The notes under the pieces are model-generated. The model was not told the origin of the DNA. It worked only from the letters and a program-made list of their open reading frames with translations, and searched no databases. From Acidisphaera sp. L21 (GTDB lineage Bacteria > Pseudomonadota > Alphaproteobacteria > Acetobacterales > Acetobacteraceae), in assembly GCF_009765685.1 (NCBI RefSeq), contig NZ_LMUY01000015.1, positions 250,738-295,649 on the forward strand: 44,912 nucleotides of DNA. Direction: 5' to 3'. Shown here piece after piece: positions 1 through 5,878 of this stretch; the stretch's first letter is position 1, and every line of letters starts with the position of its first letter. The translations under genes were made by a program, and so were the position numbers.

Positions 1-3000
1 GCCGTTCCGCCCAAATCGACCCGCTGCCGCTCATCGGCCCCTCATCGGCGGAGTAGAGCCGCCGCCCCCCCGCACCCGGCGCCACCACCCGATGCCATTC
101 CGCCCCGGCCGCGAACAGCGCCGGCGCGTCGGTGCGGCCAGCCTGCTGCAACCCCGCCAACAACGGCGCCGAACTGCTGACGTGCAACAGAATCGGCGTA
201 TCCGCCGTGAACGACAGCGCCGTCGCAGCTTGGCCGAGTGCCATACGCGCCGGCAATGTCACGGCCTGCGCGGTCGGCTCCGGCCACGGCGACTCGCCCG
301 GTGCCTCCAGCCACACAGCAACCGCACCCGGCCCGTGCTGCACGATCGCTCGGCCACCACCGGAGACCGGCATGGACATGCCCCGTGCCGCCATGTCGGC
401 AGTCGCAACCGTCAGGCTGGCATCGCCGGTCACCACCAGCGTGGCGCCAGGCGCAGCCTCGAACGGCACGTCGAACGACCCGGCGGCGCCGAAGAACCGC
501 TTCATCACCACGCCCGCCCGCAATGTCACCGCGTCCGCCGCCGGCTGGGCGGACACACGCGCCGGGGCGGCGGAGGCGCCGGTATTGACCAGCAAAAGCT
601 CGGTCCACGCGCCAGTCAAGGTGCGGCTGACGGCGCTATCCGCACCCCAAACCGCCACCGGCGTCGCATCGTGCCACCCAGCGAAGGCCGCAATGCCGGG
701 TGCCAGATCCAACTGGATCGTCTTGCTACCGCCCGGCAGGCTGATCGGCTGCGCCATGCCCGGCGGCACCGTCAACTGCCCGCTTGCCTCCAGCCCCTGC
801 GACGGCGCCAGCTTTGCTGCCAAGCGCGTCACACGCACCCGCCCGGCCTCATCGCCGCGCAACGACACGGGTGCGGCGCCCAAGGCCACCGCACTTCCGG
901 GCGCCACGCCGCCACCAAGCCCGAGATACGGCTGGCCCGACCCGCTCTCCGCCCGCCAAAGCTGCATTTTCCCCTCCTCGGCGGGCGGTGCCGACAAGGT
1001 CGCGGCCAGGCCCGGCGCGAGTTCGAGGGCCGTTTGGTCCCCGGCTGGGAAGGTCTGTGCCCGTGCCGATACGGTCATCGGCTGGGTTGCCAACAGCCAG
1101 GCATCCTGACCCGCCATGGCCATCGCCGTGCTCGCCGGCCCGACGGCATGGCCCGGCCACCCGCCTGCCAACAACCCCGGCGCCGCCCCCAATGCCACAA
1201 TCCCGGCGGCATCCAACCGCACCCGCGCCGCAGCCAAAGCGGCCGGCATACCGTCTACCGCGGCAAGCGTGACCTGGCCCGGCGCCTGCCCAGTCGCCGA
1301 CAACGCCCGCGCGGCAAGGCGGATCGGATCCGCCCCACCATCGACCGTCCATGTCTCCACTCGCCAGGCGGCCGGGTCGGCATCGGCGGGCGCGGCGACC
1401 AGAGGGCGACGGCCGCTATCGATCGCTACGGTGCGCCAGCCATCCCCATGCTGCCGCTCCAGCGCCAGCACGGCCGTGGCCGCAGCGCGCGCCTGGGCCA
1501 CGACCAGAGTGCCCGGCGCCGGCGTGGGCAGCGTCAGCACGTGCACGCCGTTGCCAGCCAGTTCGGCGGCTTGTGCCGGTGCCGCCGTGGGCGCCAAGCC
1601 GGGTGGCAGGTCCAACCGCAGCGTCACCTGGGGCGCATTGTCCGAGTTGTCCGTCGCATCGCCACTGCTAGTGTCGGCCGCAGGCCCGCGTCGCACGCCC
1701 TGGGTCGCCTTGGTCTGCTGCGCTTGATCGTCATCATCCGGCGCGTCGCCATCGCTACTATCGGACGAATCATCCGACGACGCCGAGCTGAGGTTGGGTG
1801 GCGCCGCGGATTGCAGATCCAGCGTGTACGCCCCAGGCGGCAGCAGCCGGGACGCGGCGATGTTCCAGTCATCCGGCCGGGCGCCGTATCGCGCCACCAC
1901 GCTGCCGTCCTTGCGGCGCAAGACCGCTTTCACCGGCGTGCTGCCCCAGCTCGTCAGGCTCACCACCCGCGCGGTTGCCAGGCTGAACGGCGTGGTCGCA
2001 GGCAGGCCGACGGATCGCGGCGTGCCCGGCTGCAGCGCCGGGCTGCTGAGCATCACCGTGTAGCCAAGCCGATCGTTGCGCCCGAGGCTGGTCGTCGCCA
2101 GCCGGTAATCTCCGGCCTCCAGCGCTCCTTTCCAGGACCCGACCACGCGCGCCACATGGTCGCCGCCGCGAAGCAGATCGCCCACCATGCCGTCTCCCAG
2201 CGCCAGCGTCGCCTCTGCCGGGCCGGCCAGGGTGAAGCGCCACACATCCGGCTCCCGTGGCTGATCCTTGCCATCCGGCTCCCGCCAGGTCGCGTGCTGC
2301 TCCGCCTCGAACGGCAGGGGGTGCGGGCCGTGCCCGGCGATGGCGACGGGCGTCGCGATGGCGATCAGCCGAGCCACCACCTGCCGGTCCACGCTGTCGG
2401 GCGTCACCACCAGGCGGTACGGCCCGGCTCGCAGCGTGGGCTCCAACCCATCCAGCGTGCCGGGGGGCACGATAGGCCAGCCCTCCGCATCCTCCAGCCG
2501 TCCCGTCCAGGCCGCGCCGAGTGAGAGCACGTCCAGATGGTAGCGATCATCCGCACCCCCGGCGATCTCGATCGGGAAGGTGACGCCGCTGCCCCCGCGC
2601 AAACTCGCCCGCACGCTGCCGCCGGGCAGCAGGGTGCCGCCCGTGGGCAGCGGGGCGCGGCTGGCCAGAACGCCGAGATGCCCCTCGGAGTCCGAGACCT
2701 TGACATCGACCCGATACCGGCCGGCTCGCAGCGCCGACTGGATCAGCATGTTCTGGCCGACGCCGTTGCCGTCCGCCTGCGCCAGATTGGGGATGAATGG
2801 CGTCGCCAGCCGACCCGATGTGTGCAGCCGGCCGAGAGTCTCGACCCGATACAGCCCGCCCTCCGGCACGGTCAGCGCGAAGCCACGTTCCTCGCCCCGG
2901 CGCAGATCCAGATACACCGGGCTACCAGCCTGGACCGAAGCGACTTGGCTCAAAGGCGGCGGCGTGGGGATGGCGGGCAATGCCGTTTCGGTCCGCCGCC

Positions 3001-5077
3001 AGGCCAGCGCCACCGTGCGGGTACGGTCGGACACGGGGATCAACACGGTCGTTTGCCCCGGCTGCGTGCTGTCCTGCACCCCGAACGGGATTGGTCCGCC
3101 GCCGAGTTCGGACACCACCAACTGGCCCCCCGGCGCCACCCGCACCGGCACCGACAGCGTGTTGCCCGCCATGACCGTTGCGAGCAGAGGCCCCTCCACC
3201 AGCGCCACCGGCAAAGCCCGCGCCGCCAGCCCAACCGTGGTGGCCGGCGCCGTGCCTGAATCCAGTTGCAGGAACTGCCCCGGCGTCAGGGTTTGCATCC
3301 CGAAGGGGATTACCGGATCGGCCGGTAACGGCTTGCCCAATGGCGGCGGCGTCGCGCCAGCTTGCCCAACCACCAGGTCGAGCGCGCCCAGCGCACCGGG
3401 CGCAGGCACCAGGGTCAGCGCGTAGAAATCAGGCGGCAGATTGTCCGACCGGCCGCGCCGGTGCTGCACCGCCACGCCGGTGCTGCTGAACCCGACATCG
3501 CCGCCCATCGGGAGCTGGAACAGCAGATCCGTCGGCCCACGCAGGTTGAACCGTCCGTGCCATGGGCTACCTGGCGCGAGCCGCGGCGCCGTGCTGGTGA
3601 CGATCCGCAGCGGTTGGCCCCGCTGCTCCGACCGTTGCAGCAACAGGGCGGGCGGAACCTCGTCGCCACCCATCCCCGTGGTGACGGCCGACACCCACCA
3701 ATTCCCCGGGCGGGCGAACGTCGTCGCCGTCGTCGTATCCAGTGCGCGCAACGTGTAGGCCTGTCCGGCGGCGGCGCGCACCTCCACCCAATTCGGGCCG
3801 TTACTTGCCCGCTCCAACCGGGCGGTTGGCTCGCGGCTGGTTTTATCGAGGCTCGCCACCGCATCACCAACCCGCAATTCCGCGACGGCAGCAGCCGGCA
3901 GGTCCAACCGCAGCATCCGGGCGGCTGCAGGCAGAGCGAAAACCTCACTCCCGAACGGGCCCATCGTGCCGCCGGCCCAACCCTCGGCCAACGAGTCCGA
4001 CAGCCCGGCACGCAGATGCAATGGTTGGTCGGCCGCACCATCCGTCCACGTGACCGCCGGGCCGCCATAGGCGATGGCGAGGTAGGTCCCCGGTTCCACC
4101 CGCCCGGTCAGCCGTAGATCGTCGATCGGGTGCCCCGGCGTCGGTTCCACCTGCTGGCGGGTTGGCAGTAGCGCTGTCAGGTCGCGCCCATCTCGCCACA
4201 GGCGCAGATCGGCGAGCGAACGGCCCGCGGCCTCGATCCGCACATCGCCGCCAGGAGGCACAAGCAACCAGAACGCACGCTGCTCCCCATCGCGCAGGGT
4301 CGTTGCGACCGGATGGCCGGGGCGCGGTAATGCGGCCGGCGGCGCCGCGTCGTGGAACGGCGTCACCGCCACGCTCACCATCCCGGCCGCAGCTGGCGCG
4401 GAGAACACGCGCAGTTTGTAGGTGCCGACATCCAGCAGCCGCATCAGCCGCCCATCCTGCGACCCGGCCACCCCGGCGATCTCCGTCGGGCCGGTCAGCA
4501 TATCCACCAATTGCAGCCCGGCGCCCGAGGCGCTGTGCACCGCCAGCGTAAACGCACCGGGCGACGTGACGTGCAGCAGCGTGTCCGCCTCGGCAGCGGC
4601 TGGCAGGCTGGCCGCGTCCAGCGTGGCGGCCGGGGCAGGGGGGGTGTCGCTAACCGGCGGCAATGCCGGGTCGGGGAGGGCGACCGTCGCCAACGGGGCC
4701 ACCGGCCGCACCGGTGCCGTCGCGACCGTAGGAGTTGGAGTGGCGGCAGGCGGAGCCAACGCCACTAGCCGGGCGGTCAACTGCCCGGACAGACAACGCT
4801 CCATCGCGGCCGCAGGCACATTGCAGGTAGTGTCGCGTTGCTTCAACCACTGCAGCAACTCCGTCCGCATCGTCGCCCGCTGATCCGGCTGCCGCGCCAA
4901 TGCGTCCCCGTAGGCGACCGCCACCTGGTGATCGAGCGATAACAACGCCGGGGAGCCGCAAATCCCCTTCTCTGTCGGGCTGCGCGCCTTGGTGCAATCG
5001 ATGCCTTGGGCATGCGCCGTGCCCGCAGACAGCAACCCGGCTGTGAACAGGCCAGCCAGCGCCACTCGGTATCGCAT
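1..5077 (-). CDS. Giant exported protein with LprI-like N-terminal domain (partial, runs off left edge)
   Basis: I read this frame triplet by triplet from the ATG at 5077 to base 2: 1,692 codons without a stop, and the C-terminus lies outside the window. The start has a good ribosome site (AGGGAGA, 6 nt upstream). Residues 1-23 are a classic signal peptide ending AHA. Residues 26-105 resemble the LprI-like/DUF1311 domain, with TEKGIC and LDHQVAVAY motifs and cysteines at 28, 40, 85 and 95 that could form two disulfides. A Pro/Ala-rich linker follows. The rest is beta-rich with a recurring G-x-Y motif near residues 216, 329, 740, 786, 886, 990 and 1081, reminiscent of pre-peptidase C-terminal-type beta-sandwiches. 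An Asp/Ser-rich linker lies near 1095-1120. It is probably periplasmic or secreted. Function unknown. It diverges from queC. Confidence 0.85.
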
Positions 5078-5167: not shown

Positions 5168-5878
5168 ATGGAACGATCGGACGAAAACGCCCTGGTGCTG
5201 TTCAGCGGCGGCCAGGACAGCGCAACCTGCCTCGCCTGGGCCCTGGAGCGGTTTGCCAGGGTCGAAACCCTCGGCTTCGATTACGGCCAGCGCCACGTGG
5301 TGGAGCTACAGGTCCGCGGTACCGTGCGCGCCGGCCTGGCCGCCATCAACCCGGATTGGGGCGCGCGGCTGGGGGAGGACCACGTTCTCAATCTCTCCAC
5401 CCTCGGCGCCCTGTCGGAAACCGCGCTGACGCGGGAGCAGGCGATCACGCTGGAGGCTGGCGGCCTACCCTCCACCTTCGTGCCTGGCCGCAATCTACTG
5501 TTCTTCACTTATGCCGCAGCCCTGGGCTACCGCCGCGGCCTACGGCACATCGTGGGCGGCATGTGCGAGACGGATTACTCCGGCTACCCCGATTGCCGCG
5601 ACGACACCATCAAGGCGCTGCAGGTTGCCCTCACCCTCGGGATGGACCGCCGCATGGTCCTGCACACGCCGCTGATGTGGCGCGACAAGGCTGCGACCTG
5701 GCGCCTGGCCGAAGCGCTCGGCGGCGCGCCACTGGTGAACCTCATCCGCGACGAAACCCATAGCTGCTACCTGGGCGACCGCACCCATCGCCACAATTGG
5801 GGCCTCGGCTGCGGCACCTGCCCGGCGTGCGAGCTACGCGCCGCCGGGTGGCAACGCTATTGCGCGGCGCTAGCCTAG
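5168..5878 (+). CDS. queC: 7-cyano-7-deazaguanine synthase QueC
   Basis: QueC converts 7-carboxy-7-deazaguanine to preQ0 using ATP and ammonia, in cytoplasmic queuosine biosynthesis. The 236-residue product carries the N-type PP-loop FSGGQDSAT near its N-terminus. The C-terminal zinc cluster is visible as the Cys of HSCYLG followed by CGTCPAC, i.e. four cysteines as in the family. Length matches known QueC proteins (about 230). The ATG at 5168 places ten residues before the PP-loop strand. An in-frame GTG at 5129, preceded by GGAG five bases upstream, is an alternative that would add 13 residues. No other queuosine genes are in the window. The 3' end overlaps the convergent PCD gene by 9 bases. 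Confidence 0.95.

Follow-up and report, generated by a model that had tools for sequence, protein, structure and literature searches.

The window analysed here, 44,912 nucleotides of Acidisphaera sp. L21 (genome G000, locus L002), sits within a 364-kb contig. Its first 5,077 positions carry, on the minus strand, most of a gene for a very large exported protein, referred to below as the giant. Immediately 3′ of it, past the window edge, lies a gene for an alpha-2-macroglobulin (A2M). A2Ms are protease traps, and the bacterial ones are related to human immune proteins. The features of the giant are listed in window coordinates, with Z scores, root-mean-square deviations (rmsd) and aligned residues for fold matches.

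2..5077 (-): giant secreted protein gene, 5′ 1,692 codons; continues past base 1 to a stop overlapping the A2M start
5009..5077 (-): signal peptide, residues 1-23, read from the sequence by eye, with no lipobox seen
4751..5008 (-): LprI-like four-cysteine head, residues 24-109, helical in the model (Pfam, alignment, model)
4346..4633 (-): predicted beta-sandwich module, residues 149-244 (4lo7_E, HA70 D3: Z 8.6, rmsd 2.9, 91 aligned)
4001..4354 (-): predicted beta-sandwich, collagen-binding/PPC-like, residues 242-359 (3jqw, ColH: Z 10.0, rmsd 2.6, 101 aligned)
2042..2359 (-): predicted beta-sandwich, collagen-binding/PPC-like, about residues 907-1012, mapped from the orthologue L005 (1nqd, Z 10.2; 5sv5 PPC, Z 10.1; low-confidence model)
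1814..1987 (-): best PPC-like segment by profile, about residues 1031-1088, mapped from L005 (98.8%; best reversed control 2%)
1628..1795 (-): acidic Ser/Asp-rich low-complexity linker, about residues 1095-1150 (sequence; low model confidence in the orthologue)
1298..1588 (-): predicted beta-sandwich, about residues 1164-1260, mapped from L005 (1pm4, Z 10.8, rmsd 2.4, 95 aligned)

The frame is a genuine gene. An initial annotation, made from the letters alone, had described a stop-free frame with a signal peptide, a four-cysteine LprI-like domain, at least seven G-x-Y motifs and no recognised enzyme motif, and had warned that an antisense frame at 92-2524 could be mistaken for the gene. Each of these points was borne out. 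The frame from 5077 to 2 (-) translates through 1,692 codons with zero stops; when the whole window is shuffled 60 times, the longest stop-free run averages 359 codons and never exceeds 484. A Shine-Dalgarno-like GGGAG precedes the ATG at 5077, upstream of which the frame stays open to a GTG at 5296, an unlikely start. The N-terminus resembles a signal peptide and, read by eye, ends in AHA-QG. Differences from L005 at codon positions 1, 2 and 3 amount to 0.33, 0.26 and 0.55 over 1,671 codons, position 3 being the commonest. The G-x-Y motif occurs exactly 7 times (residues 218, 330, 741, 786, 885, 989 and 1082), compared with a shuffled mean of 1.99, and is as frequent in 5 of 2,000 shuffles. 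The longer form [LVI]xxGxY is present 6 times against a shuffled mean of 0.42, a count reached in 0 of 2,000 shuffles. Pfam names no enzyme family in the window protein. An antisense gene at 92-2524 was rejected: that frame is open because the codons TTA, CTA and TCA, which are stops on the opposite strand, are rare in the giant (8 of 1,692, with 0 past codon 852), and it is a by-product of codon usage.

Just past the window edge is a short run of N, which may be a gap in the assembly or masked sequence. It is followed by a conserved giant C-terminus of about 118 residues (profile match of 170 bits) in a register that differs from the part before the run; the two parts were read separately and not bridged. 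The stop of the giant lies in a TGATG sequence that overlaps the start of the A2M gene, which is itself broken by a run of N. The C-terminal piece of this A2M passes the curated Pfam cut-offs for bMG10, A2M_BRD, A2M and MG2, and bMG6 (C-terminal piece) and bMG3 (N-terminal piece) lie just below theirs. NCBIfam gave no match for the giant or the A2M. Judged from L005, the full giant would comprise about 1,820 residues. The differing register could be a sign that the gene is decaying in G000, with a frame change close to the edge that leaves the conserved sequence as a remnant; the relative in G010 is split across two frames and the copy in G122 is broken. Decay is nevertheless highly improbable: all 1,692 codons are intact, differences from L005 are commonest at the third codon position, and the C-terminus and A2M read open apart from the runs of N. 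The initial annotation had looked to an extension of the contig for the C-terminus, which was found there. It had also named a frameshift or stop just beyond the edge as the mark of a decayed gene; decay was not seen, as the conserved C-terminus follows, although a frameshift may be hidden in the run of N.

In the LprI-like head, a three-row alignment shows cysteines 28, 40, 85 and 95 to be invariant. In the model, residues 24-109 are helical, and blocks over residues 1-80 have a predicted local distance difference test score (pLDDT) of 78-90. The window protein scores 19.4 bits with the LprI family PF07007, below the cut-off of 22; three of five orthologues pass (24.4, 30.3 and 34.7) and two fall short (21.8 and 17.5). 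The head is present in eight of the 13 giants with a judgeable N-terminus (G000, L004, L005, G010, G083, G114, G282 and G163). It is undetected in the other five (G035a, G035b, G245, G620 and G603) and is therefore not essential. Three genomes encode ordinary A2Ms that bear a related LprI head N-terminally; in every case the head scores above the Pfam cut-off:

L146:4308-10424 (-): LprI + A2M fusion protein (Pfam)
L118:2109-7199 (+): LprI + A2M fusion protein (Pfam)
L122:6449-11848 (-): LprI + A2M fusion protein (Pfam)

The LprI name of the head is no proof of lysozyme inhibition.

The body of the giant is best read, from profiles and models, as an array of diverged PPC-like beta-sandwiches. 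Structure prediction of the repeated modules, a check that had been proposed from the sequence, leads to this reading through models of low overall confidence. Internal repeats are apparent by profile-profile comparison, in which 12 of 800 non-overlapping segment pairs reach at least 80%, against 0 of 800 reversed. A profile built from six PPC-like tails aligns to L005 at 97.6-98.8% within 991-1160 (segment 1021-1160 at 98.5-98.8%) and at 85-89% within 721-830, 811-950 and 1711-1820, the best reversed control being 2%. The folds of single modules match the collagen-binding domain of ColH (Z 10.0), a ColG domain (Z 10.2), YPM (Z 10.8) and the Bacillus PPC domain 5sv5 (Z 10.1, rmsd 3.2, 91 aligned), with Z values close to those of other beta-sandwiches. 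Foldseek rows spanning at least 500 columns at an rmsd above 20 were disregarded. Matches to SIDT1 (Z up to 10.3) were set aside as shared beta-sandwich architecture, not function.

Pfam found no PPC domain (PF04151) in the window protein (E up to 1) or in five orthologues (E up to 0.1); the homology of giant segments to recognised PPC domains is seen by profile comparison and fold. The L-x-x-G-x-Y motif is typical of PPC domains, and also appears in the PPC-like-tail proteins of the class. In the six of the ten weak class-search matches that were inspected, the module lies at the C-terminal end of proteins whose open frames span about 390-550 residues, and three of the four PPC-like-tail proteins submitted to Pfam pass the PF04151 cut-off. 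Such proteins occur in several genomes of the class (L066-L071) with a conserved WYN...GxYxLxVxHCC-like motif.

Homologues with the same architecture, which the initial annotation had proposed to look for, exist in Acetobacteraceae and in other families, with the exception of the head where it is undetected. A scan of GTDB contigs gave three giant relatives, from two Rhodopila metagenome-assembled genomes and Roseococcus pinisoli. Aligned over its full length, the window protein shares 57% identity with L005 and 43% with L004 (Roseococcus pinisoli); identity to L005 over aligned positions ranges from 57% (G000) down to 27-28% (G163). A headless profile detects the giant in 6 of 120 genomes from the family; the copy in G122 is broken. 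A class-level search, limited to two scored candidates per genome and so liable to undercount giants, matched 14 of 337 genomes, four strongly (G000, G245, G282 and, in pieces, G163) and ten weakly. The ten weak matches cover one module only and, together with nine head-only matches from another search, are not counted as giants. An apparent frame of 25,483 codons in another genome was dropped, about one third of that stretch being N. A search of the giant profile against solved-structure sequences returned a single chance-level row (E 2.8). The broken copy in G122 (L047:3352-4952 (+)) has no A2M within the stretch fetched, and this genome has no strong PBP1C (best 207 bits); a joint loss of the whole giant-A2M-PBP1C module is possible there.

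The genetic linkage of giant and A2M is well supported. In all 13 loci with readable DNA past the giant (L002, L004, L005, L012, L032, L033, L045, L046, L063, L064, L143, L144 and L136), the giant is directly followed by an A2M, and all of these A2Ms belong to a single clade. Genome G035 contributes two copies, L032 and L033. Left out of the 13 are L003, where the contig ends within the gene, G163, with giant and A2M on separate contigs, and the broken copy of G122. Scored with the clade profile, giant-linked A2Ms reach 1,911-3,401 bits (the two pieces of the N-interrupted L002 give 2,144 + 862), and none of the ordinary A2Ms fetched exceeds 225 bits. Three of the 13 (G620, G603 and G495) came from a search that used only the A2M profile, and a giant lies upstream in all three; that of G603 is shorter, at 1,337 codons, and of that in G495 only the C-terminal 206 residues are present, where the contig begins. 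The stop of the giant precedes the listed A2M start by 8-13 bases in L004, L012, L032 and L033.

The giant is absent from all 20 control loci with ordinary A2Ms (L114-L130 and L145-L147). These derive from 16 of the 26 other genomes with A2M matches, the second, ordinary A2M of G245 and three further ordinary loci. The control A2M in L122 was identified by Pfam, and that in L123 by profile match and the thioester motif CXEQ alone. Control L146 matches the LprI head only, and the largest same-strand open reading frame within 6 kb upstream of the control A2Ms has 1,055 codons. G245 carries both kinds of A2M, and its giant adjoins only one. By a crude scan, giant-linked and ordinary A2Ms did not differ clearly in lipid anchors. 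The giant-linked A2M P0013 (a G035 copy) had a best E of 0.17 and no A2M row in a search of solved-structure sequences, though Pfam names it an A2M.

Of the 13 loci, 11 have pbpC, the gene for the peptidoglycan synthase PBP1C, after the A2M; in G000 it lies on a different contig, and the contig of G495 runs out. An example PBP1C (P0012) has Transgly, Transpeptidase and BiPBP_C, all above the Pfam cut-off. A gene for a 230-residue membrane-protein-like product, which we take to resemble YcxB-like proteins, lies between A2M and pbpC in G010 (L131:5181-5873 (-)), its ends overlapping both neighbours, and A2M-pbpC gaps of about half a kilobase also occur in L004 and L005. The two copies in G035 (L032 and L033) are both full giant-A2M-pbpC sets, both without a detected head and without the thioester Cys.

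Giant and A2M are co-inherited, as the two trees agree on their main groups. The trees share 10 tips, with the A2M of G000 represented by its C-terminal piece and G620, G603 and G495 not included. Both recover G083 with L005 and G000, L004 with G010, and G035a with G035b, each with a support of 1.0, and in both G245 and G282 stand apart. G114 joins G035 with a support of 0.93 in the giant tree and has no resolved place in the A2M tree.

The CXEQ motif is kept in six of the 13 giant-linked A2Ms (G083, G245, G282, G620, G603 and G495) and absent in seven (G000, L004, L005, G010, G035a, G035b and G114). These sites were checked in the alignment, except that of G000, which was judged from its translation. 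Since G083 groups with L005 and G000, at least two losses of the Cys are needed if it was never regained, and the loss of CXEQ appears secondary in the giant-linked clade. All 20 control A2Ms keep CXEQ; having been found by similarity to the giant-linked clade, they lean to Type I, and the general frequency of thioester loss is not readable from them. The repeated loss would be explained if giant and A2M formed a composite cage, a heteromeric third type of bacterial macroglobulin that captures its target without a covalent thioester, with the LprI head exchanged between trap and partner. Such a cage is unlikely. The six A2Ms that keep the thioester speak against it, and the giant by itself therefore does not go with thioester loss.

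Two known kinds of A2M system offer a comparison. Type I a2m genes are often paired with pbpC, for which a periplasmic defence has been proposed (PMC5764988 and PMC4498604). The giant-linked A2Ms resemble the Type I pair (E. coli yfhM/ECAM-pbpC and Salmonella Sa-A2M) in being followed by pbpC and, in six of 13, in keeping CXEQ. Unlike Type I, an extra giant gene precedes the A2M and the thioester Cys is lost in seven of 13; in G000 both Type I features are lacking, as its A2M has no CXEQ and pbpC does not adjoin it. The Type II protein MagD, of the Pseudomonas aeruginosa mag operon, has no thioester, as is the case in G000 and six other giant-linked A2Ms. According to PMC5764988, MagD still traps protease non-covalently, depends on partner proteins from its own operon, MagB above all, and is stabilised by MagB. 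By analogy, the giant may be a partner of its A2M clade that corresponds to these proteins. Unlike Type II, the order is giant-A2M-(small gene)-pbpC and not magABCDEF (the neighbours in L002 were read from translations, and Mag sequence homology was not searched), and the loss of CXEQ appears secondary.

The domains of the giant also depart from their relatives. The LprI family (PF07007; Mycobacterium LprI and Salmonella ScwA) has a helical, exported four-cysteine domain like the head (PMC7933661); in the giant it sits on a large beta-module protein, and the window copy is below the Pfam cut-off. The body shares a beta-sandwich fold, by model comparison, and L-x-x-G-x-Y motifs with PPC/collagen-binding domains (PF04151; ColG and ColH), but has no attached peptidase and gives no PPC match in Pfam.

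The giant is a new component found with a system of known kind, A2M-PBP1C, and probably adds an undescribed member to a cell-envelope defence system. With a probability of roughly 0.6, it is an exported, probably periplasmic scaffold and dedicated partner of one A2M clade, usually with PBP1C, in an envelope-defence module. If proteases or wall-cutting enzymes crossed the outer membrane, the A2M, cut in its bait region, would close on the protease. The giant, as a scaffold or adaptor, would hold and position the A2M as MagB does for MagD, its LprI head would contact peptidoglycan or a peptidoglycan enzyme, and PBP1C would make new wall. Several points weigh against this interpretation. The models are weak (mean pLDDT 58.7 and 47.5, the latter being the C-half model, used for local modules only), and five of 13 giants have no detected head. 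Salmonella ScwA, which has an LprI domain, gave no lysozyme protection and altered peptidoglycan hydrolase levels, according to PMC7933661. The gene neighbourhood suggests, without proving, a physical giant-A2M complex. In G000, pbpC is on another contig and not next to the A2M. A PBP-family gene also follows ordinary A2Ms (13 of 15, and 2 of 3 in a second set); being common to both kinds, it says nothing special about the giant, which is itself the difference.

Alternatively, the giant may be an array of inhibitors in which the head and the PPC-like modules directly bind wall hydrolases, lysozyme-like or other, the adjacent A2M handling proteases with no contact needed. The LprI membership of the head, the PBP1C partner and the resemblance of one module to the fold of the lysozyme inhibitor PliG (4dzg, Z 9.2, rmsd 3.2, 97 aligned) are consistent with this. 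The PliG match is, however, one among many beta-sandwich matches of similar Z, the authors of PMC7933661 found no experimental evidence that the LprI domain itself inhibits lysozyme, and a head undetected in five giants fits poorly, which together make the array decidedly unlikely. The fold matches to collagen-binding domains would equally suit an adhesin- or matrix-like surface protein, with modules that bind extracellular polysaccharide or protein and an A2M that protects it from proteolysis. This is quite improbable, as neither a surface anchor nor an autotransporter part was found by eye or in Pfam (no dedicated predictor was used) and the PBP1C linkage points to the periplasm.

In literature searches with subscription journals mostly outside coverage, no paper joining LprI with macroglobulin was found, no title on macroglobulin in Acetobacteraceae was related, and no A2M title concerned such a giant partner. 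How thioester-less bacterial macroglobulins hold proteases, and the roles of their partners, are described as open in PMC5764988. On the reading of the giant as an A2M partner, A2Ms with and without the thioester have the same giant partner in one clade, which provides a natural comparison set. The poorly understood LprI domain also gains a context, now being present both on A2Ms and on their partner.

On the other side of the giant, a divergent gene at window 5168-5878 (+), presumably similar to queC (7-cyano-7-deazaguanine synthase), starts about 90 bases from the start of the giant, and the two may share a promoter region.

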